NCBI GenBank assembly: GCA_029262055.1
Contig: JAJDAD010000003.1
Coordinates: forward strand, 1-64,000
Source of the DNA: Candidatus Zhuqueibacterota bacterium
GTDB lineage: Bacteria; Zhuqueibacterota; Zhuqueibacteria; Oceanimicrobiales; Oceanimicrobiaceae
Length of the DNA: 64,000 nucleotides
Reading direction: 5' to 3'
Shown here piece after piece: positions 19,631-33,008 of the stretch. A program made the position numbers and the translations under genes. The notes below the pieces were generated by a model that worked only from the letters and a program-made list of their open reading frames with translations, searched no databases and was not told where the DNA came from. Within the stretch, counting starts at the first letter, position 1. The number at the start of each line of letters is the position of its first letter.

Positions 19631-22363
19631 CTACTTCAAAAGTGTCATCTTCTGAACCTGATGAAATGAACCTGCCTGAATTTGGTAGAAATATGTGCCG
19701 CTGGGCACCGAGATACCAGCCTGATTACGACCATCCCAGGTGATCTCGTAAAAGCCGGCCGGCTCGAAATCATTCACCAAAAGGCGAACCGCCTGTCCGG
19801 TGACATTGAAGATCTTGATAACTACCCTGCTTTCTTCCGGCAGCTGGTAGTTGATTTTGGTTTCCGGATTGAACGGGTTCGGGTAGTTCTGTGCCAAAGC
19901 AAACTCATCCGGCAGCAACGTCGTTGCAGAATTGCTGAGAGTCAGCTTGGGCGCCACGCTTGCCGCACTTGCGCTCGGGGCGCCGAAAGTAACATTGTAA
20001 AACGCGTTTACGAACGGCGGGCCTTGTGGAGCGAACCCTCCGAAGAGGTCGCCAACGAAACTGGTGCTGAAATCCTCGACCAGCGCGAAGTAATCACCAT
20101 CAGCCGGCGCTTCGAAGGCAAGAAATGAATCCAGCCCGTCAAAGTCATCATTAAATGCGAGGAAATTGCCCTCGCTGTCAAAGATGCTCAGGAACGGGTC
20201 CATGCCCGACGCGGGGTCCAGCGTACTTGCGTCGATATCGATTTCGACAATGTCACCTGCGCTAGCAGAAAACTTGAAGTAATCCTGGTCTCCTGCCGCG
20301 TCGATAGTCAATCCTTCTGCAGCGAACGGAACATCGACCGCGCTGGCACGTCTCATCTCTCCATTTGCTTCCAAAGCATCTCCGGGTGCCGCTACCAGCA
20401 CCATATTACTCGGCAGGCTTGAAGTCGAACGAATGGTGTTTGTTCGGACGAAGTACAAGTGGGTTTCACCCACCCGGTTTTTTGTTAGGACCGGATCCTG
20501 CAATTCGCCGAAAGTCTCAACCTGGACATCCGCGAAACCTCTGCGCTCATAGACATTTGTATCGCGCACCTTAAACCTCTCGATGAGGTTGTCTGCTTGT
20601 CCGGAAGGTTCGGCAAAGCCAAGACGATAGTTCGCCCGGCGTCCGTTAAATCGAATGGCGTTGGCGCCCAGGAACCTCGGGGCCTCGTGCGGGACATGCT
20701 TCACGCTGGTGCTGACCGTCGCCATCATCCCGTAATTGCGTGTACCGCTCAGGAAAAATGTCGGAGCGGGCCCGTTGTCGCTGGTGAAATAGGAGCTTCC
20801 AAACCAACCCTCCTCAAGAAAAGTAAAGTCCATTCGAATAAACGGGAAACCACCAAACGGGAAGAAACTGGGATCGGCAGCAGACGGGAACTCGAGCATA
20901 ATGTAAAACACCGGGTCGCGATCAGGTCTTTCCAGACCAATGTCTACCGTCGTCACGCCATTGGGTGAGCCAATGAACGGCGCAACTTCGTGCAGGACAT
21001 TGCCCATGTCCGGGGAACCGTCAGGATGTGCGCCGACTACTCGCAATGATGGGAACTCGGCCGGCGTACCGCTGAAAGTGAACGTGGGGATTGACACACT
21101 CTCCAGCACATAATCCCTCTTGAAGTCAGTCGGAATCCGCTGCACGAGAAATGCATCTGAGGTAAAGGTGACGATGTTTTCGGTATCACCGAACAGGCGG
21201 ATATCTACGCGTCCAGGAAAGGTATTCGTGATAATATCAATCCCGGACGTGGCTGTTCCGGCAGACACACTGACTGCATCAGCACCGGTACCGGGAAAAC
21301 CCTCATCTCCACTCTCGGCGCTATCATAGCACTCTTCGGGAAAATCGGTGTCTGAGGTCCCGGCAACAATAGCGCTGATTTGTCCAGGACTGACGGGAGA
21401 ACCGTCCAGGGGTTCGACGCAAACAAAGTAATCGCCATCAACCAATCCGGGAATGAAATAACTGCCATCCGGTGCAGAAAAGCCACTAACGGCATTGCCT
21501 ACAGCGGCGGCCGAAATCGGGTCGGTCACTGCCGGAAAATCCGCCAGAGGCACGGCGAACACGCTTGCGCCCAGCACGGCGTGGCCATCCACGCCACTTG
21601 TCACGATACCCTCCAGCTTACCAAATGTCGCATCAAAAGTATCTGACGGATAATAGTATGAAATGTAGGCTATGTCGTCAGCATTCAGGGTGCGCCCGGC
21701 ATCGACGTCAGAGCCAATAAATGGAAACATCGTTGCATCCCTGACCAGCGTGTGTGACAGGCCTTCCGAGTGTCCTATTTCATGCGTGCTGACATCCTGG
21801 ATGTCGAAGGCAGGACTATTCGTACCACCGGCCAGGTCATTCCATACCAGGCCTGAATTGTAGGTAACATCCGAGTCGAGAATGGTCCCGGCCGAAAATG
21901 TGCCTGCCACATAATCCTCATCCCCATCACCGTCAAAATCCGGTGGCGTGTCAAAGGTGGTTTCTGTCAACAAGATGAAGGAGGGCGCGAACGCAAGCGG
22001 ACCACCAGCGCCCAAGTCCACCCATCTGTGAATATTGTCGCCGTCCAGTGCCAGGTTCGCATTGGTCGTGCCAACACCCGGTGCAATGTTTTCCCAGGTG
22101 ATTCTTGCTGTCCCAACATCCTGCCAGGCTGCGTAGCTGGCGTCGACAGCGGCCTCAGTGACGGCAAAGTCAGCACTACCGGCCAGACTCACCGAAGCTC
22201 CCAATTCATTGACCATGTAAGGAATTGGCAACATCGCGTCGGGCCAAGTGATGTTAATGATATTACCGTCTACATCTAAATTCTGTAGGTTGCCTCCGGG
22301 GAAGGCTGAAGATACGAGTCCAACAAGGGACAGGCAGATTGTGACGTATTTAGTAAATCGCAT
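19631..22363 (-). CDS. Secreted matrixin-type zinc metalloprotease with PPC and T9SS domains
   Basis: The protein has about 910 residues. ATG 22363 is chosen because GGAG stands six bases upstream; an ATG four codons earlier is also in frame. A signal peptide covers about residues 1-20. The catalytic zinc motif HEIGHSEGLSH lies at about 194-204, with a following Met (RDATMFP) as Met-turn. A calcium-binding-like run DFDGDGDED precedes it. After the protease come a carboxypeptidase-regulatory-like domain (GKLEGIVTSG), a long beta-rich stretch, a PPC domain at about 715-800 (DYFKFSASAGDIVEIDI) and a T9SS tail (QNYPNPFNPETKINYQLP). It should be exported and degrade or process extracellular protein. 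A small secreted protein gene directly upstream is probably in the same transcript. Confidence 0.9.
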   Translation of the reverse strand: MRFTKYVTICLSLVGLVSSAFPGGNLQNLDVDGNIINITWPDAMLPIPYMVNELGASVSLAGSADFAVTEAAVDASYAAWQDVGTARITWENIAPGVGTTNANLALDGDNIHRWVDLGAGGPLAFAPSFILLTETTFDTPPDFDGDGDEDYVAGTFSAGTILDSDVTYNSGLVWNDLAGGTNSPAFDIQDVSTHEIGHSEGLSHTLVRDATMFPFIGSDVDAGRTLNADDIAYISYYYPSDTFDATFGKLEGIVTSGVDGHAVLGASVFAVPLADFPAVTDPISAAAVGNAVSGFSAPDGSYFIPGLVDGDYFVCVEPLDGSPVSPGQISAIVAGTSDTDFPEECYDSAESGDEGFPGTGADAVSVSAGTATSGIDIITNTFPGRVDIRLFGDTENIVTFTSDAFLVQRIPTDFKRDYVLESVSIPTFTFSGTPAEFPSLRVVGAHPDGSPDMGNVLHEVAPFIGSPNGVTTVDIGLERPDRDPVFYIMLEFPSAADPSFFPFGGFPFIRMDFTFLEEGWFGSSYFTSDNGPAPTFFLSGTRNYGMMATVSTSVKHVPHEAPRFLGANAIRFNGRRANYRLGFAEPSGQADNLIERFKVRDTNVYERRGFADVQVETFGELQDPVLTKNRVGETHLYFVRTNTIRSTSSLPSNMVLVAAPGDALEANGEMRRASAVDVPFAAEGLTIDAAGDQDYFKFSASAGDIVEIDIDASTLDPASGMDPFLSIFDSEGNFLAFNDDFDGLDSFLAFEAPADGDYFALVEDFSTSFVGDLFGGFAPQGPPFVNAFYNVTFGAPSASAASVAPKLTLSNSATTLLPDEFALAQNYPNPFNPETKINYQLPEESRVVIKIFNVTGQAVRLLVNDFEPAGFYEITWDGRNQAGISVPSGTYFYQIQAGSFHQVQKMTLLK

Positions 22364-22428
22364 GGCAAACTCCATTTATGAGAGTAAATGACTGTTTTGG
22401 TGTGGTCGTTGAAATCGTCAGACTATTG

Positions 22429-23076
22429 TTAACGTTCCAACTTCCGCTTGCCATGGGTTTCATAAGCCTCGTCTGTGCTGGCCTTTTCAAAATCAATGCC
22501 CCCTTCTTTACCCAGGATGGTGTTGACTTCCTGAATGTAGCTCTCCAACTTGAAGGATTGCGCGCGGGCCGGCGACTCAACCGCTTTTCCGTCGACCTCT
22601 TTCATTATCTGAATATTTTCCGGATTCGAAAATATCATCTTCTCGCCGGTTCCATCTGCCCGGATGCTGAATTTCCCTAACGCCCATCCCATCACAGAAT
22701 TACGCCCGGATTCCTTCTGCGAAATATAGACCAGGACTTCTTCATCGATGCGGAATTTGGGCGCGCCAGGTACGAGCATTCCGATATTGTCTACATTGCC
22801 ACCGAGTCGCGTGACAGTCACTGACGCACCCAGGTCGCCCTTCAAATAGCGACTGACAGACAATACAATTTCTGTTTCAATGCGGCCATCCACCCATTTG
22901 CTGCTGGTGCCTACACATTTACCGATAGCAATGGCATCTGACTTGGTAACAAGATCTTTGGTGGTTAGCCGAGGAAAGGTCGTAGCGTCCGCGGTTTGAT
23001 AGACGAGTGCAAAAGTGCAGAATAAGACGACTAAACTCCTGAAGGCAGGAGACAAGAGCCTTGTAAATACATGCAT
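22429..23076 (-). CDS. Small secreted protein upstream of the matrixin protease
   Basis: The protein has 215 residues with an N-terminal signal peptide ending near TADATTF. The rest is mostly beta-strand-like: SDAIAIGKCVGTSSKWVDG, then IVLSVSRYLKGD, and FRIDEEVLVYIS. I recognise a style of protein often encoded next to matrixin-like proteases in environmental bacteria, but no named function. It lies 65 bp upstream of the protease and AAGGGG stands seven bases before its ATG. An accessory role for the protease, such as inhibitor, chaperone or substrate, is inference from position alone. Confidence 0.7.
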   Translation of the reverse strand: MHVFTRLLSPAFRSLVVLFCTFALVYQTADATTFPRLTTKDLVTKSDAIAIGKCVGTSSKWVDGRIETEIVLSVSRYLKGDLGASVTVTRLGGNVDNIGMLVPGAPKFRIDEEVLVYISQKESGRNSVMGWALGKFSIRADGTGEKMIFSNPENIQIMKEVDGKAVESPARAQSFKLESYIQEVNTILGKEGGIDFEKASTDEAYETHGKRKLER

Positions 23077-23492: not shown

Positions 23493-26400
23493 TTACTTTA
23501 GCAAAGTCATCTTCCGGGTTCTGACGGTGCTACCCGTCATAATGCGGTACAGGTAAACACCGCTGGCCAGAGGTGCTCCGGAATCGTCCAACCCGTCCCA
23601 GGTCAATCGATGTCCCCCGGGAACCTGTCTCTCTGTCTTAATGGTCCGTACTGCCCGACCAAGAATATTGAATATTTGCAATGTAACACTTGTCGCTTCG
23701 GGCAACGTGTAGGTAATCGTGGTGGTTGGATTGAATGGGTTTGGGAAATTCTGAGCCATCGCGAAGGAGGCTGGACGCGCCACGGTCTGGGAGACAGATG
23801 TAGCGCCATCTTGAATTCTGATATTGTCAATGGCCCAACCCCAGCCATTTGTATTTGCGTCGGCGGAAAGCCGGAATCGCACAAGAATGGTCTCATCGAC
23901 AGCAAAGATACTGCCCAGGTCAAGGCTGTGTGTTCGAAACAAAGATGCGTCCCCTTGTCCGGATGGGAAGCGCGGCAACCATCCGCTTGAATCAAAACTG
24001 GCATCGTAGCCATCGCCTATTGCAAGCCACGTCTTGCCGTTGTCGCGGCTCCCCTCCACAACCACAAAATCCCAAAAGCCAAACTGGCCGAATGGCACGC
24101 CCAACCCGGGTTCGACCAAAGCAACATCATCGTACTCAATAAGTGAATGATCGTTTGCCACGGTGATGGGCGTCTTCAAGATCGCTGTCAGCTCTGTCGC
24201 ATCGGGATAGGGATGCGGGCTGTGCAGCGCAGGGTCCGCGAATCCGGCCGCGGTGAGGACCTGCAGGCCCAAGAGAATGAAGTCATTGCTGGGCTCGTTG
24301 AAATCATTGAGATAGGTAAACACAGGTTGGTTAAGTGGAAGTAAAACCAGCTCAAGCGGAGCGCCGCCCACCCTTTTCCCTGCCCGGAATCCAAAAGCCG
24401 CCACAGAAACAGTATCGACCTCACTGACCGGGGCAACCAGGGTCAGCGCCGTGTCCATCGGTGTGATGTTTGGAGGCAGTGCCAGAAAGGTACTGCCATC
24501 TACGGTAATCGCTGTTGAATCGTAGGCCGACCGCAGCTCGACTTCAACATTGACAATCCCGCCGACGCCCCCCTCTACATTCAGAATTCGCGGTGGCAGC
24601 GTGGCCAACGGCGGTCTGTAGCCGGCCAATTCCGGCAGGGAAACGGTCCAGACACCCCGCCCGTGCGTTGCCACGACAACCTCGTCATCGACAATCAGCA
24701 TTTCGTAGACAGCGGTTGCCGGAAAACCGCCTTGATGCAATGCCCAGGAAGCGCCGCCGTCCAGGGATTCGAAAATTCCGATTTCCGTACCTGCCCAAAT
24801 ACGATCCACGTCAAACGGCATCACGAGCAAACTGTAAACCGCCACATCCGGAAAACCGGCGCTGCTTGCGCCAGTTGGTCCGAATCCGGATATGTCCTGC
24901 CAGGATTGTCCCAGGTCAGACGTACTCAGAATCTTCGGCGCTCCGGCAAAAGAAAAAAGAGCAAAGGCAGTGCTATCTTGCAAGGGATGGGTTTCGATCC
25001 CGGAGATGCGGCCCAACGTAACGTCCGGAAAGACCACGGTTTCAGCAAAAGTCAGCCCCCCGTCCGTAGAAACAAAGAGCGGGCTCTCAGGTGTCATATT
25101 GCGGCCGGTCCAGACAATTTGGGGGTTGTGCAAGTGAATCTTGATTTGCGAAAAACTACTCTGGCCATCCCAGCCTGAATGCTCCATCGGAACCAGCCGC
25201 CACTCCGAACCGAAATGTTCTGAGCGCCAGACACCTGAAGCGCCGATGGCGAAAATCAAATCAGGATCTTGCTTTGATTTGCCAATCTTGGTGAAAAAAG
25301 GCGCGAGGTCGGGTCCTGAGTCGATCGCTCTCGAGATAGTTTGCCAACTGTTTCCGCCATCGGTGGAGCGGAAAATCAGATTGAACTGCGAGGACTCGAT
25401 GAGCTTGTCCGGATCAACATAATGCCAAGCCGCCTCGAAGCCGTCGCCGCTGGGCGCCGGAGCCCAGGCACTGCTCCTGCCGGGGTCCACCGCGGAAACC
25501 CAGCTCCCGTTGTCTTGCGTCCCGCCGATGTATCGACTCTCACCGGGCGCTTTGTCAATGCCATAAAACTGTGAGGTATTGAAACCGGCATTCCTCTGGA
25601 TAAAGGTCAGACCTTTGTTATCCGAGAAAGCAACACCGCCATCGTTCGCGTTCACCATTCTGTACTCTTGCGTCCCGGGATTACTCGGGACCAGGACCAG
25701 ATTATGGTGGTCAACATGCACGCCCTTCGTTGTTCCCCCAAACTCGCCGTAGCCATCCGTAATATTTTGAATACTGCTCAGGCGCTGGCGTCGCGTGCCC
25801 CAAATGATGCGGATGAACCCAGTCGAACTCAAAGTGTCAAAATTGCTCGTGCCGTTGCCCTCAGGTGCCTCCATCCACAACCCGTAGAGATTTTTGGCCG
25901 TGATGTTGTCATTAGCAATAGCGACATCGGGAGCGGCTGCATTGTAGGTATTGGCGCTGATGAAGAGATGTTCCCGGTCTATTCCCCCCAAAGCGGTAGC
26001 CCGGTCCTGCAAGTCGAAAACGCCGTTCTCGTCCCAATCCCTGAATGCCGCCGCCAATTGCCGGTTGTTATCGAGATCCCACACTTCAAATGGTACATCC
26101 GGGTAGTCTAAGAATGTGTCGGCTGTCGAATCGAATCGATGTGCCTTCTGCGACCTGCCGGGTCCAAAACGTACTTCGATCGATACAAAGTCGTCCTCCG
26201 TTGCGTCGGTGCCAAAGAATTCCGATCCCAGAAAACCTCCGCCATCAAAGAAGGAACCAGATCCCGGGAAAAAAGCAATCAGCGATGACGTGTTCTCTGT
26301 TTCCGTTTTGAGAACAGCATTGGTGGAGTCGACACTCTCCAGAATGTCAATACGCCAGAGATTGACGCCCCCGACAAACACGGCGTTTTCATCGAACGGA

Positions 26401-27578
26401 TCGCATGCGATGGTGTTGTCATACCAGCCCTGCCCTGCCAGCCAGTCAGTCTCCCCGCCGTCGGCCTCTTGCGCAACCACCCACGATTGCGCCCTGTTTT
26501 CACTGACATAGAGTACAGAACCCCGTTCAAACGCTTCTATTTCCGACGAGACAAAGAGTTTTGCCGGATTCACGGGTGAGATCGCGATTTCCATCCTGCC
26601 GACATTGCCGATGCCCACCGATGCATCGGTCCAGGTGACGCCCCGGTCGCCCGACTTCACGACTCCCTGCGTATGCACTGTGGCGTACTGCAGGTCAAAA
26701 TCCGTCGGATCGGCCACCAGATCCTGCACCGGGTTCACGCCCGTATCCAATACCTTTGCCCAACTTAGCCCGCCGTCATCAGATCTGTGAATCCCAGAGG
26801 TCGTGGGCGCGGCATTGAAACCTGTGCTGGTGGACACTAAAACCAGGTCCGGGTCAGCGGGATCGACGACCATCCGCGTGACATTCTGAAAATCCAGGTT
26901 CGCAGTGTTGACCAACTGTTGCCAGGAGAGGCCACTATCCTCAGATTTCCAGATGCCGCTACCGTGAATCTGGTCAACGTTGAAGAAACCCTCGCCCGTG
27001 CCGGCATAGATAATATCCGGTGCGGCAACACTCCAGGCCAGCGTGCTAAAAGCAAGGTTTGGCAGACCCTGCGTCAGGTTCACCCAGGTAACACCCGCGT
27101 TTTCGGTTTTCCAGACGCCGCCTCCGACTGAACCCGCAAACCAGGTATCAAGGCCGGCAGCGCGCGGATCCACCAGCAGTCCGCGCACCCGTCCGGCAAA
27201 ATTGCCTGGACCGCGTTCAGTCCAACCTAACTGGTTGTCGCCGGCAAACTTCACCAAAGCTCCCGTGGACTTAACGCCTTTGGCGTTGAGCAGGGCCTCG
27301 ACTTTGTAGTTTGGCCGGTAGCCTGGATCCGTCTCATTGCTGCGCGTGCGGATGCCGTGGCGCCATTGCGCAAATAGGCTCGGATGTTGTTGCTTGGGCG
27401 TATTTTTCACCAAACGCTTGCGCTCAGTCAGGAAATTCGCGGGGCTGGCGCTGTCCTCCGCGGCCCTCTTTGCAATTGTCAAGTCGGACTTTGGATCGTG
27501 CGCTCTATTTCCGGAAATACGCAGAATTACAACGAGGCAGGTGAAAGTGAGCAGTAAAAGAGATGCGGGTTGCTTCAT
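23493..27578 (-). CDS. Secreted sortilin/VPS10-like BNR-repeat protein with T9SS tail (paralog 1)
   Basis: The protein has about 1361 residues from ATG 27578, which starts a good signal peptide (MKQPASLLLLTFTCLVVIL); 32 upstream in-frame codons look untranslated. Many Asp-box motifs SxDxGxxW are visible (WKTENAGVTWVNL, KSEDSGLSWQQL, RSDDGGLSWAKV, STDGGLTF, ESLDGGASWAL), as in sortilin/VPS10 and exo-sialidase propellers. A MAM- or jelly-roll-like domain at about 1130-1260 (FWDFVVVEGSRDNGKTW) and a T9SS tail (QNFPNPFNPTTTITYTLP) follow. It aligns along its length with the protein at 28854-33008. Secreted surface display is well supported; the ligand or enzyme activity is not known. Confidence 0.9.
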   Translation of the reverse strand: MKQPASLLLLTFTCLVVILRISGNRAHDPKSDLTIAKRAAEDSASPANFLTERKRLVKNTPKQQHPSLFAQWRHGIRTRSNETDPGYRPNYKVEALLNAKGVKSTGALVKFAGDNQLGWTERGPGNFAGRVRGLLVDPRAAGLDTWFAGSVGGGVWKTENAGVTWVNLTQGLPNLAFSTLAWSVAAPDIIYAGTGEGFFNVDQIHGSGIWKSEDSGLSWQQLVNTANLDFQNVTRMVVDPADPDLVLVSTSTGFNAAPTTSGIHRSDDGGLSWAKVLDTGVNPVQDLVADPTDFDLQYATVHTQGVVKSGDRGVTWTDASVGIGNVGRMEIAISPVNPAKLFVSSEIEAFERGSVLYVSENRAQSWVVAQEADGGETDWLAGQGWYDNTIACDPFDENAVFVGGVNLWRIDILESVDSTNAVLKTETENTSSLIAFFPGSGSFFDGGGFLGSEFFGTDATEDDFVSIEVRFGPGRSQKAHRFDSTADTFLDYPDVPFEVWDLDNNRQLAAAFRDWDENGVFDLQDRATALGGIDREHLFISANTYNAAAPDVAIANDNITAKNLYGLWMEAPEGNGTSNFDTLSSTGFIRIIWGTRRQRLSSIQNITDGYGEFGGTTKGVHVDHHNLVLVPSNPGTQEYRMVNANDGGVAFSDNKGLTFIQRNAGFNTSQFYGIDKAPGESRYIGGTQDNGSWVSAVDPGRSSAWAPAPSGDGFEAAWHYVDPDKLIESSQFNLIFRSTDGGNSWQTISRAIDSGPDLAPFFTKIGKSKQDPDLIFAIGASGVWRSEHFGSEWRLVPMEHSGWDGQSSFSQIKIHLHNPQIVWTGRNMTPESPLFVSTDGGLTFAETVVFPDVTLGRISGIETHPLQDSTAFALFSFAGAPKILSTSDLGQSWQDISGFGPTGASSAGFPDVAVYSLLVMPFDVDRIWAGTEIGIFESLDGGASWALHQGGFPATAVYEMLIVDDEVVVATHGRGVWTVSLPELAGYRPPLATLPPRILNVEGGVGGIVNVEVELRSAYDSTAITVDGSTFLALPPNITPMDTALTLVAPVSEVDTVSVAAFGFRAGKRVGGAPLELVLLPLNQPVFTYLNDFNEPSNDFILLGLQVLTAAGFADPALHSPHPYPDATELTAILKTPITVANDHSLIEYDDVALVEPGLGVPFGQFGFWDFVVVEGSRDNGKTWLAIGDGYDASFDSSGWLPRFPSGQGDASLFRTHSLDLGSIFAVDETILVRFRLSADANTNGWGWAIDNIRIQDGATSVSQTVARPASFAMAQNFPNPFNPTTTITYTLPEATSVTLQIFNILGRAVRTIKTERQVPGGHRLTWDGLDDSGAPLASGVYLYRIMTGSTVRTRKMTLLK

Positions 27579-27789
27579 GGGATCTGTTATGTGAATGTAG
27601 CGGAAGAAAGAATTGGCGGGATATCTATTCGCCCCCCTTGGGAGGTTAGTCAAAAATACTTCAAATTGCAACATTCGCCTGACATGTTAAGCGAACTTAA
27701 GATTCAACGCGATGCATAAGTAGAACAAGGCCCGCCATCCTGACCTGCGGCAGGAATGCGGGTTCTTAAAAGACGTGGCATCACCTAGG
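27579..27789. other. Upstream region of BNR paralog 1
   Basis: About 210 bp with no gene. It must contain the promoter for the minus-strand gene at 27578. A weak TTGCAA-N17-TAACCT arrangement exists near 27643-27671 but is not convincing. Confidence 0.3.
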
Positions 27790-27822
27790 AAAAAAAGGAG
27801 GGCACAACCTATGTGCCCTCCC
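27790..27822 (-). terminator. Rho-independent terminator
   Basis: A 10-bp stem (27797-27806 with 27812-27821), a five-base loop and then seven T residues on the minus strand (27790-27796). It lies 26 bp after the stop of a leftover T9SS tail and would end the transcript of the small secreted gene upstream. Confidence 0.85.
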
Positions 27823-27847
27823 AAACTTCGCTGGCTATTCAGCGGGA

Positions 27848-27960
27848 CTACTTAAGCGATGTCATCTTAAAAGACTTTACAAAGTATGCGGCTTGAATTC
27901 TGTAAAAATACAGACCGCTTGAAACTTGTCGGTCGAACTGTCCATGCCCAGCCTGTTCGG
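27848..27960 (-). pseudogene. Leftover T9SS sorting-tail fragment (copy A)
   Basis: Read on the minus strand, this stretch gives GQFDRQVSSGLYFYRIQA and then AYFVKSFKMTSLK before a TAG stop. The true tail of the gene at 28854-33008 reads GRQVSSGLYFYRIQAAGFV and then KSFKMTLLK, and the DNA is also closely similar. The fragment is in the same frame as the 163-residue ORF just upstream, separated by a TAG at 27977-27979 and about a dozen codons. It lacks the YPNPFNP first half of the domain. It is either the remains of a deleted paralog or a tail once joined to the small secreted protein. Confidence 0.8.
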
Positions 27961-27976
27961 AACTGTTCAACACAGA

Positions 27977-28468
27977 CTACAATGCACAGAACGTATAGTC
28001 TGTCCCGTAGTTGTAATTGCTTGGTTCTGTTGGCAATGTGTCGCATTCTGTTTGTGGGGGAGAGCCCACATGCAAGACTTCGGTTGTGTAGGTGATGTCA
28101 CCGCCTATGGCGTTAAATTTCACTTTACATCTGACTTTCAGCCACTTGCCGCAATCAGCGTCTATCCTGACCCTCTCTTTGCCGTTCACTATCTCGGCCC
28201 AAGCACCACCTTCCGCTTTTACTTCCCAATTGATACAAATTATGCAATCTAGATAGCTGGGATCAAGAGCTTTCAACTGGAAAAAACCCACCCACTCCTT
28301 ATTCTGCAAATTGCTGTTTTTGTAGATATCATCGACTCGCTGAACGTAGAAAGGATATTCAGAAAGTGGGACTAGGCACTCGTCTACCGGGGATAAGCTA
28401 GGGTGTCCATTACCTATACTATAGAAGCAAACAGCTATCACAGTTATCACGAACACGATGGACTTCAT
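27977..28468 (-). CDS. Small cysteine-rich secreted protein, function unknown
   Basis: The protein has 163 residues with an N-terminal signal peptide (MKSIVFVITVIAVCFYSIG). The mature part has at least seven cysteines (DEC, DCIIC, DADC, VRC, TEC, TFC), so disulfide bonds outside the cytoplasm are likely. I recognise no family. It ends in TAG, and translation in the same frame beyond the stop would enter a T9SS tail fragment with its own terminator. It may therefore be a truncated form of a longer T9SS cargo. It sits between two paralogous BNR-repeat genes, in a region of tail remnants. Confidence 0.6.
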   Translation of the reverse strand: MKSIVFVITVIAVCFYSIGNGHPSLSPVDECLVPLSEYPFYVQRVDDIYKNSNLQNKEWVGFFQLKALDPSYLDCIICINWEVKAEGGAWAEIVNGKERVRIDADCGKWLKVRCKVKFNAIGGDITYTTEVLHVGSPPQTECDTLPTEPSNYNYGTDYTFCAL

Positions 28469-28561
28469 GACTCAACCCTCATGGTTAGAATAATAGTTGT
28501 AGACTATGATCGAGTTACACACATTCGCACGCTCTCCCAAAGTCTCATTAATTAGGTACTC

Positions 28562-28690
28562 CTATCGGCCTGTAGTTAGCAAAGTCACCTTGAACGACTT
28601 CACGAAATCAGTCAGCCTGAATCCTGTAAAGGCAGTCCCCAGTGCCTTTCTGCCGAACTCAAGGGTGTTTAACGGATGCCCGTATCAATG
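28562..28690 (-). pseudogene. Degenerate T9SS sorting-tail fragment (copy B)
   Basis: The minus strand reads EFGRKALGTAFTGFRLTD, then FVKSFKVTLLTTGR and a TAG stop at 28562-28564. Compared with FGRQVSSGLYFYRIQAAGFVK of the neighbouring intact gene, the frame is kept but the central SGLYFYR core is lost. It lies downstream of the terminator of the intact gene and has no coding sequence in front of it, so it is a dead remnant. Confidence 0.65.
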
Positions 28691-28743
28691 CTGATATCAA
28701 CGTGTCCGGTCTGATTTCGATTTTCCAGGGATAACCGGACCAA

Positions 28744-28780
28744 AAGAAATGACCGGGAGGTTAATCAAACCTCCCGGTTC
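28744..28780 (-). terminator. Rho-independent terminator behind BNR paralog 2
   Basis: An 11-bp stem (28752-28762 with 28768-28778), a five-base loop and a T-rich stretch on the minus strand lie about 75 bp after the stop of the gene at 28854. Confidence 0.8.
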
Positions 28781-28853
28781 TATTAACCATTTTCTCCTTC
28801 ATCCCTAAGTGAAACATTTTTGAATACTTAGAACTTCATGTGGTCATTTGATA

Positions 28854-31800
28854 CTATTTGAGCAAAGTCATCTTAAAAGACTTCACAAAACCCGCCGCTT
28901 GAATTCTGTAAAAGTACAGACCGCTTGAAACCTGCCGGCCGAACTGGTCCTTGCCGTCCCATTGCACCGTGTACCGACCTGCTTCACGTTTTTCGTTCTG
29001 CAGAAGCGTCCGTACGCTTTGTCCGAGAACGTTGAACACAGTCAATGTAACCTCAGACTGCTTCGGCAAAGCATAATCGATCTGGGTGGTCGGGTTAAAC
29101 GGATTTGGATAGTTCTGAGACAGCGAAAAGACTTGTGGCAACTGCGAGCCACCGTCATCCTCAACGGAGACGACACCGTCCTGAATGTTCAGGTTGTCGA
29201 TGACCCAGCCCCAACTCTCGGCGCCCGGATCTGCCTCTAGCCTGAACCGAACGAGGATCACCTCGCCGGCGGAAAATGTATCCAGCAAGTCCAACTCGTG
29301 GTGAACGAACATAGTTGAATCACCGGGACCAGCCGGGTCGTTTGCCAGCCAGGTGGCATTGAACCGCGCATCGTAGCCATCGGCAAGCGGTGTCCAGGAG
29401 ATGCCATTATCGTTGCTTCCTTCGACAATGACAAAATCCCAGAAAGTTGCATCGCCGAAGACAGTGCCGGCATTTCCTGGCTCAACAATGGCAACGTCAT
29501 CATAGGCAAATGTTGCACCACTGGACGCGACCTCGATCGGCGTTTTCAATAAAGCGATAAAATTCCGGTTCGGCGTGTAGGGGTGCGGAGAGTGCAGCGC
29601 ACCGTCTGCGAACCCTGCCTCGCCAGTGAGAAGGTCAAGGCCACTAAGGACAAAATTATTCCGGTCTGCATTGAAGTCTTCCGCAAATGCAGCCTGCGGG
29701 TCGTTCAAAGGAAAGACAACTGTCGGGATAGGCACATTACTCAACTTGACACCACCTGCGTAGGCAGAAACTGAGACATCCACCGTATCGAGTGTGGTGG
29801 TTGCTACAATCAGAGTCAGCACCGAGTCGACCGCACCAGTATTTGCAGCGAAAGAAGCGAGACGCTGTCCATCCACATAAACAAATGAGGAGTCATACGG
29901 TGAAGGTAACTGTAACGTGGCGCTGATCTGGCCGCCACCGCCACCGAGGACAGATGCAAAACGCGGTGCAAGTGTCGCCACGGGAGGTTCATAACCGGAC
30001 AGTTCCGGCATAGTGACAGACCAGATACCTCTGCCATGGGTCGCGACAACAACCTGGTCGTTTACGATAAACATCTCATAGGCGCCAGTGGCCGGGAAAC
30101 CTTCCGTTTGCAGGGCCCATGATGCACCGCCGTCATTGCTCTCAAAAATACCGATCTCTGTACCGGCCCAAATGACATCTGTGTTAAACGGCATGACGAG
30201 GCAACTATATACGGCAACATCGGGGAACCCGCTTGCACTGGTTGTGCCTGTGCCAAAACCTGTTATATCTTCCCAACTTTGCCCAAGATCGGTTGTCCCG
30301 AGTATCTTCGGCCCGTTTGCAATGGAGAACAAAGCATACGCAGTGCTGTCTTCAGTCGGATGAGTCGCAAAGCCGGACAACCTGCCCATGGTTACATCCG
30401 TGAAGAGGTTAGTCGCAGAAAAAGTAATACCACCGTCCGTCGACACATAAGGCGTACTGCCCGTAACCATGTCTCTTCCGGTCCAGACAATTTGCGGATT
30501 GTGCAAACTGATCTTCACCTGCGAGAAACTACTAATGCCATTCCACGCGGCGTTTGTCATTGGCGCCAGAGTCCAGTTGCCCGCGAAATTGTCAGTACGC
30601 CAAACACCCGATGCGCCGACCGCAAAAAGTAGGTCGGGATCCTGGTCGGTACTGGCAATTTTCGTAAAGAACGGTGCGAGCTGTGGGTTACTGCCAACGT
30701 CCAACAAACCCGTCGCTGTATTGGCATTGGAAAAGCTAGCACCACCGTCCAGCGACCGCCTGATGCCATTAAATTGCGAACCGCCAATCATCTTCAAAGG
30801 ATCGTTGTAATGCCATGAGGTTTCGTAACCATCACCCCCGATTGCGAAGGTGTAGTTGGTGGCTGCGCTCGCATCTTCTCCAGCCGGAGAGAACCAGGTA
30901 CCGTTATCCTGCATACCGCCGAAGTAACGGTCCGCTCCATTCATCTTGTCGGCGCCATAGAATTGCGAGGTGATATAACCGTTGTCAGTTTCGCTCCAAG
31001 TTACACCGTTGTCCATTGACACAGAAACGCCACCATCATTTCCGTTCAAGATCATGAAGGTCTGTAATTCCGTATCTGTCGGAACAGCAAGCAGGTTGTG
31101 ATGATCGACATGCACTGTATTTACCGGCCCCGAGGCTATCTGGGTGCTGGCAAGTCTGTTGGTGATCAAAGTCCCCCACTTTATCCTGATGGTAGCATCA
31201 AACGATAGAGTATCGGGGGAAACGATTCCCGCGCCGGCAGGTGCTACCGGCCACATGGCAAAGGTGTTTTTGTAGACTTGTCCCGCAGTAACCGCAATCA
31301 TCGGGTCTGGCGCGGTTGAATCATAAGCAACAGAATGAATAAACAGATACTCACGGTCGATACCACTGCCGTCAATGTCTGATGCGCGGTCTTCCAACTC
31401 GTAGACACCGTTGTTCTCATCATCACGGAACGAGACCATCAATTGCTGATTGTTGTCGATGTCCCACACTTCAAAAGGTACATCAACATAGTCCTGATAC
31501 GGATATTGAAATCCCCCTGCAAACAGGAATCTGTGTGCCTTTTGGGACTTACCGGGTCCTAAACGAACTTCTACACTCGTAAACTCATCTGGCGTTAGGC
31601 CGGTCGCAAGGCCGTGGAAACCTGCTCCGGTCTCCAGGCCACCGTTACCAAAGCGGCCGCCGAAATTCACAAAGGAAAAGAATGTGGACAGGTTTTCCTG
31701 ATCTACTCCCAGGACCGTAATTAGTGTGTCCTGACCAGCAATTCCATCTAGCTGCCACATCCGGACTCCGCCGACAAACACAACATCTTTGTTGAAGGGA

Positions 31801-33008
31801 TGAACCGCAATTGTGTTGTCGTACCAGCCCTGCCCGCCAAGCCAATGGACCGCGTTTTCATCATTGGCACCAAACCACGTAGCGCCGGCGTCTTCGGATT
31901 TGTACAGTATTGAACCAAGAGCGCCACCTTGAGCAGCGGCATAAATGGTTGCCGTGTCAGTTGGCGCTATTGCCAATTCCGAACGTCCTACCGGACCAAT
32001 GCCCTCGGAAGAAGAAAACCAATTCTGTCCCGCATCAATCGACTTGAAGACAGCGTTGCCATTGACCGCTGCATATAAAGTATTGAAGTTTTCAGGGTTA
32101 GCGACAATGTGTTCAACCGAAAACGCACCGGATTCGTATACTTTTGTGACCGTCGCGCCGCCGTCTGTGGATCTATAAATACCGGAGGTGGCATTGCCAT
32201 CATTAAACCCTGCAGCTACACCGAATACGAAGGTGTCCGGGTCGTTGGGATCAACGACGATACGCGTGATGTTTTCAAAGTCAGCGCTGCTGGCAGTGCT
32301 GGCCAGTTGCGTAAAGGTCGTGCCGCCATCGTCGGAACGCCAGATTCCACTGCCATCGAGATTATCAACGTTACCAAAACCTTCGCCGGTACCGACGTAA
32401 ATGACATTGGGATTGGAAAGACCCATCGCCAGCGTACTGGTAGACAAATCAGGTAAGTCGGCCGTAAGATTCGTCCAGGTCGCGCCGGCATCTTCGGTCT
32501 TCCAGACACCGCCACCGACCGAACCTGCAAACCAGGTGCTGTAAGTGGGATCTCCCGGGTAGATCAGCAATCCTCTGGTTCTGCCGCCGACATTAGCCGG
32601 ACCACGGGACACCCAGTCCAGTCCGCCGAGGCCCTGCAACGAACTCAATTCTTTTGTAGATTCAACATCGTTCGCCTTCAGCAACTCTCTGATCTTGTAG
32701 TTGTGGGGGTAATCAGGTCTGTCGGCGCCGTGGCGGGTCCGAATACCATTGTGCCAGGCGGCAAACAAATCCGGGTTATCAGGGTTGGCCACGCCTTTCA
32801 CTCTTTTCTTTCTCTCGGAGAAAGGCTGCTTCTGGCCGGCTAAGATGGCCAGGTTATCAGCCTCAGTAGAAATATTGACGGGTGTCAAATCGTCACCCTC
32901 AAATACTGTGACATCTGAGTCCGTTGCTACTTCAAAATTCAAACTCAGAGTCAACGCAATGCAGAGAGCAACCAAAACACTTGAAAACGCATAGAGCTTT
33001 TTACTCAT
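28854..33008 (-). CDS. Secreted sortilin/VPS10-like BNR-repeat protein with T9SS tail (paralog 2)
   Basis: The protein has 1384 residues; AAGGAGG stands upstream of the ATG and a signal peptide covers about residues 1-25. Asp-box repeats run through residues about 165-1010 (WKTEDAGATWTNL, RSDDGGTTF, YRSTDGGATV, KSIDAGQNWF, RSLDGGASF, ESNDGGASW), typical of sortilin-type propellers. Then come a MAM/jelly-roll-like domain (FWDFVIVEGSNDNGISW) and a T9SS sorting domain (QNYPNPFNPTTQIDYALP). It is homologous over its length to the gene at 23493-27578 and has its own terminator. Two broken copies of its last 30-40 codons lie just downstream. Export and surface attachment are expected; the partner is unknown. 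Confidence 0.92.
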   Translation of the reverse strand: MSKKLYAFSSVLVALCIALTLSLNFEVATDSDVTVFEGDDLTPVNISTEADNLAILAGQKQPFSERKKRVKGVANPDNPDLFAAWHNGIRTRHGADRPDYPHNYKIRELLKANDVESTKELSSLQGLGGLDWVSRGPANVGGRTRGLLIYPGDPTYSTWFAGSVGGGVWKTEDAGATWTNLTADLPDLSTSTLAMGLSNPNVIYVGTGEGFGNVDNLDGSGIWRSDDGGTTFTQLASTASSADFENITRIVVDPNDPDTFVFGVAAGFNDGNATSGIYRSTDGGATVTKVYESGAFSVEHIVANPENFNTLYAAVNGNAVFKSIDAGQNWFSSSEGIGPVGRSELAIAPTDTATIYAAAQGGALGSILYKSEDAGATWFGANDENAVHWLGGQGWYDNTIAVHPFNKDVVFVGGVRMWQLDGIAGQDTLITVLGVDQENLSTFFSFVNFGGRFGNGGLETGAGFHGLATGLTPDEFTSVEVRLGPGKSQKAHRFLFAGGFQYPYQDYVDVPFEVWDIDNNQQLMVSFRDDENNGVYELEDRASDIDGSGIDREYLFIHSVAYDSTAPDPMIAVTAGQVYKNTFAMWPVAPAGAGIVSPDTLSFDATIRIKWGTLITNRLASTQIASGPVNTVHVDHHNLLAVPTDTELQTFMILNGNDGGVSVSMDNGVTWSETDNGYITSQFYGADKMNGADRYFGGMQDNGTWFSPAGEDASAATNYTFAIGGDGYETSWHYNDPLKMIGGSQFNGIRRSLDGGASFSNANTATGLLDVGSNPQLAPFFTKIASTDQDPDLLFAVGASGVWRTDNFAGNWTLAPMTNAAWNGISSFSQVKISLHNPQIVWTGRDMVTGSTPYVSTDGGITFSATNLFTDVTMGRLSGFATHPTEDSTAYALFSIANGPKILGTTDLGQSWEDITGFGTGTTSASGFPDVAVYSCLVMPFNTDVIWAGTEIGIFESNDGGASWALQTEGFPATGAYEMFIVNDQVVVATHGRGIWSVTMPELSGYEPPVATLAPRFASVLGGGGGQISATLQLPSPYDSSFVYVDGQRLASFAANTGAVDSVLTLIVATTTLDTVDVSVSAYAGGVKLSNVPIPTVVFPLNDPQAAFAEDFNADRNNFVLSGLDLLTGEAGFADGALHSPHPYTPNRNFIALLKTPIEVASSGATFAYDDVAIVEPGNAGTVFGDATFWDFVIVEGSNDNGISWTPLADGYDARFNATWLANDPAGPGDSTMFVHHELDLLDTFSAGEVILVRFRLEADPGAESWGWVIDNLNIQDGVVSVEDDGGSQLPQVFSLSQNYPNPFNPTTQIDYALPKQSEVTLTVFNVLGQSVRTLLQNEKREAGRYTVQWDGKDQFGRQVSSGLYFYRIQAAGFVKSFKMTLLK

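Follow-up and report, generated by a model that had tools for sequence, protein, structure and literature searches.

How does the end of a T9SS sorting tail come to stand between genes, with no protein of its own? The question is raised by the window, the whole stretch of 64,000 nucleotides analysed here, in which the minus-strand codons at 27848–27960 read ...QFDRQVSSGLYFYRIQAAYFVKSFKMTSLK*. The first-pass annotation saw in these codons a likeness to the end of the gene at 28854–33008, noted that only the last third of a sorting domain is present and that a strong terminator follows, and proposed recombination between the 3′ ends of paralogous cargo genes as a route to swap or lose export tails. 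In KSB1 genomes the T9SS cargo genes number about 150, and change in this repertoire has been little studied. The minus-strand order at the locus is P1, terminator, R2, ORF163, R1, terminator, P2, as follows.

28854–33008 (tail about 28854–29111), minus strand: P1, T9SS cargo gene with a Sortilin/Vps10-like beta-propeller and a FlgD_ig/type A sorting tail, source of the displaced copies
28752–28778, minus strand: intrinsic terminator after P1
28573–28659, minus strand: R2, second displaced copy of the P1 tail end, older-looking, with several indels (score 74, shuffle maximum 34)
27977–28468, minus strand: ORF163, small secreted protein, with a signal-peptide-like N-terminus and a GAGG ribosome-binding-like site upstream
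27847–27969, minus strand: R1, displaced P1 tail end, from DNA alignment (ungapped core 27847–27940, gapped part to 27969)
27796–27822, minus strand: intrinsic terminator after R1 (stem, z −4.0)
23493–27674, minus strand: P2, tandem paralog of P1 (52% identity)
22429–23076, minus strand: conserved downstream gene, with an apparent ortholog directly after the P1 ortholog in G004 (read by eye)

The window also holds, at 19631–22375, a further T9SS cargo gene, which encodes an M10 (matrixin-type) metalloprotease bearing both a PPC domain and a sorting tail.

Source and state of the displaced tail end

R1 aligns with the 3′ end of P1 at 85% identity across 94 nt without gaps, and the homology reaches about position 27969 once gaps are allowed. 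The local score is 143, whereas 200 dinucleotide shuffles reached at most 34. When the whole genome was searched with R1 as DNA, the tail of P1 was the sole strong match (84%, E 4e-25), and the second-best match was 22 nt with E 0.28. The identity to the neighbouring gene is thus well above that to unrelated tails, a comparison that the first-pass annotation had called for. About 150 T9SS tails are present in this genome, and none but that of P1 is near R1 in DNA. The tail of P2 gives a score of 31, which lies inside the shuffled range. P1 is therefore the source type of the tail, and P2 is rejected as the source. Of the recombination suggested earlier, one part stands, in that R1 is a leftover T9SS 3′ end from a rearrangement there. 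The exchange between paralogs does not stand, as R1 copies P1's own tail.

The fragment comprises about 30 residues plus a short decayed extension, and is absent from the full-domain sorting-domain matches. A type A tail is a complete C-terminal domain of about 70–80 residues on a secreted protein; P1 has one and R1 does not. The terminator following the fragment looks real, with its stem running from 27822 to 27796. What the earlier reading overlooked is R2, the second and more decayed copy. A possible third tail copy at 27764–27785 scored at chance level (26 of 200 shuffles) and was dropped.

Within 90 nt R1 differs from the P1 tail at 14 positions, mainly third positions of codons, with three residues altered and nine of the 12 changed codons synonymous. 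A model in which both copies drift neutrally is rejected for these differences (P below 1e-4), whereas one in which P1 is constrained and R1 alone drifts is not (rough P 0.27). The outcome depends on the model, so no purifying selection is claimed for R1. Two residues kept in P1 and three orthologs are lost from R1 (Gly to Asp and Leu to Ser), and its 5′ part is disrupted by indels. On the sequence, R1 is best read as a decaying, non-functional copy of the tail with no sign of function, and is predicted not to be a functional export tail.

R1 could still be translated, either by readthrough of the in-frame TAG of ORF163 or by independent initiation, as it is in phase with ORF163 and free of stops over 42 codons. 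Such agreement of frame is expected one time in three by chance, and the tail copy at the corresponding locus of another genome, G039, sits in a different frame. The stop of ORF163 looks native, because its two relatives in G039, ORF-A and ORF-B, also terminate at about this point, right after a conserved Cys. The Gly-to-Asp and Leu-to-Ser changes at conserved residues and the 5′ indels also speak against translation, which we hold to be extremely improbable. Nor is there support for the suggested swap or loss of an export tail by any protein at this locus: P1 keeps its tail intact, ORF163 ends at the usual C-terminus of its family, and no remnant of a vanished cargo body was found.

A small secreted-protein gene between the tail copies

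ORF163 is a complete small gene and is alone in the interval between R2 and R1, which contains no recombinase-sized reading frame. It matched no family in Pfam, NCBIfam or PHROGs and nothing in plasmids, phages, viral contigs or PDB, and the Rfam search of the region was also empty. Its AlphaFold model, at a mean pLDDT of 40, was unusable. A search of 99 genomes with ORF163 returned two weak matches, the best outside its own genome having an E-value of 0.0016 (in G039). This search was made blind, before the displaced tail at the G039 match had been seen. ORF163 scores 75 against ORF-A (shuffle maximum 55) and 62 against ORF-B (shuffle maximum 47), and none of 1000 shuffles reached the real score in either comparison. 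Profile searches of 388 genomes found three members only, ORF163, ORF-A and ORF-B, the relatives being confined to contig C70 of G039; the E-values of the three in their own profile search are by construction. All three show the traits by which we define the family: a signal-peptide-like N-terminus, 160–180 aa, E-W, SY, C..W, and a C-terminal G..Y...C.

Two of the three members carry an in-frame stop. In both G039 genes (C70, 11078–11569 and 11969–12505) the sole in-frame stop, TGA in one and TAG in the other, stands where ORF163 has Trp. The ORF163 family and the T9SS-tail setting of such scars appear to be new.

The same layout at another cargo gene

In G039, another KSB1 genome, the relatives of ORF163 follow closely behind a T9SS cargo gene other than P1, one with FG-GAP repeats. 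Reading onwards from this gene, one meets its tail and a terminator, ORF-A, a copy of the tail, a copy of the terminator, and ORF-B. The tail together with its terminator is duplicated (score 125 across 167 alignment columns). ORF-A and ORF-B can also be aligned with each other in their leader and signal-peptide regions. The interval contains these two genes only and no recombinase-sized reading frame. Past ORF-B there is no tail, and that gene adjoins the original 3′ flank directly.

Four relatives share this cargo gene at 72–76% (G036, G030, G017 and G054), three of the same genus and one of another. None has an insert or a second tail within about 3 kb of it, and none has an ORF163 relative in the profile searches. 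In G036, the closest, the 3′ flank of the cargo gene and the next gene correspond to the sequence right after ORF-B in G039 (score 375), so that about 1.7 kb in G039 splits what is contiguous in G036. Both G039 tails share three derived bases missing from all four relatives, which indicates that the copying happened within the G039 lineage. With the layout recurring in independent genomes, and with copies 15% different inside a 99-kb contig, an assembly or binning artefact is hardly credible at all, even for data that consist of metagenome assemblies.

ORF-A and ORF-B have diverged far more than the tails flanking them. Plain tandem duplication explains the G039 locus poorly for this reason, and the divergence gives a hint that the locus gathered distinct versions of the small gene instead of copying one version on the spot. 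On this hint rests the reading of ORF163-family genes as cassettes with recurrent entry into T9SS cargo genes at the 3′ end, where the tail serves as landing site and is restored each time. We consider it quite unlikely; if true, cargo genes would accumulate arrays of small secreted partners to choose among, much like rhs orphan arrays.

A third such layout was found in G004 (C107, 3300–5071), where, downstream of a Vps10-like T9SS cargo gene, there is a gene for a 317-aa PD40 beta-propeller and behind it a displaced, closely similar copy of the cargo gene's tail (score 213); the middle gene is unrelated. Displaced tails are not a general feature. None was found within 1.5 kb of 30 other tails in the window's genome, an isolated 26-nt inverted match being disregarded, so such layouts are uncommon. 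Several candidates were discarded: an orphan tail at C114 of G039 is a decayed lone cargo gene, two further short orphan tails of G039 lie at contig ends and were set aside, and the case at C60 of G005 is a plain frameshift. G004 also has an orphan tail relic with an internal deletion (C52, 5334–5420).

Origin of the locus and known systems

In G039 a 3′ end is duplicated around an insert, whereas G036, G030, G017 and G054 have the site empty. The recurrence suggests that R1 is likewise a scar, left when the 3′ end of P1 either received an insertion of DNA with ORF163 or underwent tandem duplication together with that DNA. We give this reading a probability of about 0.6. The DNA carrying the small secreted-protein gene would enter the cargo-gene 3′ end, or duplicate in tandem with it. 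The cargo gene would retain a complete tail, with the spare tail end placed beyond the small gene, where it would decay slowly without function. The second displaced copy, R2, suggests at least two such events at the window. Ordinary recombination or tandem duplication would probably suffice, and a dedicated recombinase would be unneeded. We infer the order of events from the layout, and the window would have arisen like G039.

The P1 orthologs in the same-family genomes G002, G004, G005 and G007 have a single tail, with no second within 3 kb; a short tail shared by relatives, which the first-pass annotation named as evidence against its reading, is thus not seen there. The gene after the tail of the G004 ortholog is, by eye, the ortholog of 22429–23076. 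An empty site for the window is accordingly presumed from genomes of the same family, not the same genus. The G004 ortholog itself is divided between the ends of contigs C204 and C187, the break falling inside the tail.

Some observations count against the scar reading. The terminators after P1 and after R1 have no significant homology to each other, unlike those of G039, and a proposed homology of either to the G002 terminator was not supported. No relative of ORF163 lies beyond R1, and no recombinase or terminal repeat was found.

R1 and R2 might instead be the last remains of complete tandem P1 paralogs whose bodies were deleted. P1 and P2 are already tandem paralogs, and cargo genes do decay down to tails, as orphan relics with no parent gene nearby occur elsewhere in the window's genome (C74, 153183–153263; C94, 16205–16267; C25, 30258–30320). 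The synonymous excess would also agree with R1 having long sat in a working gene, although it also fits one-sided neutral decay. No remnant of the body of P1 or of P2 was found in any frame of 27680–28853, and lost paralogs leave the G039 layout and the association with ORF163 unexplained. We regard this origin as somewhat unlikely.

If the scar reading is right, cargo-gene ends appear to let new small secreted-protein genes settle with the cargo gene unbroken, leaving readable scars. The succession of tail, small gene and second tail would then be a search signature for recently gained secreted-protein genes, and with ORF163 comes a small protein family linked to scars of this kind.

Several known systems resemble the locus in part. 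R1 matches the end of the T9SS type A C-terminal sorting domain (TIGR04183), but keeps only its last third with no protein attached. Like the pseudogene fragments left by decayed tandem duplications it is a partial, decaying copy of a neighbouring gene end; its layout, however, is found again at a second cargo gene, in company with the same unrelated family of genes.

Insertion of prophage e14 at icd displaces a 163-bp icd 3′ end (PMC6379469), so that, as here, the host-gene 3′ end occurs twice, intact on the gene and displaced past the inserted DNA. Site-specific integration of this kind, in which the element arrives with a replacement gene end and pushes the former one aside, is suggested by the likeness of the layout and of the mostly synonymous differences. 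The inserts of about 1 and 1.7 kb, however, hold no integrase, att core or phage genes; frame sizes leave no room for a site-specific recombinase, and the tail copies begin at differing points rather than at a fixed core. In G039 no tail stands past ORF-B next to the original flank, and the three shared derived bases indicate a local copy. We find such integration distinctly improbable.

Fragments of rhs orphans are found downstream of the main gene (PMC3967940), and the orphan modules of Rhs/CDI systems share with our loci the alternation of displaced 3′ fragments with small genes after a large exported-protein gene. The likeness is one of layout only. Those modules pair a displaced toxin C-terminus with an immunity gene, whereas the fragments here encode the sorting tail alone, with no toxin domain, and ORF163 is not known as an immunity gene. 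By analogy, the layout of the window and G039 would work in outline like icd/e14 and the rhs orphans, as a member of neither.
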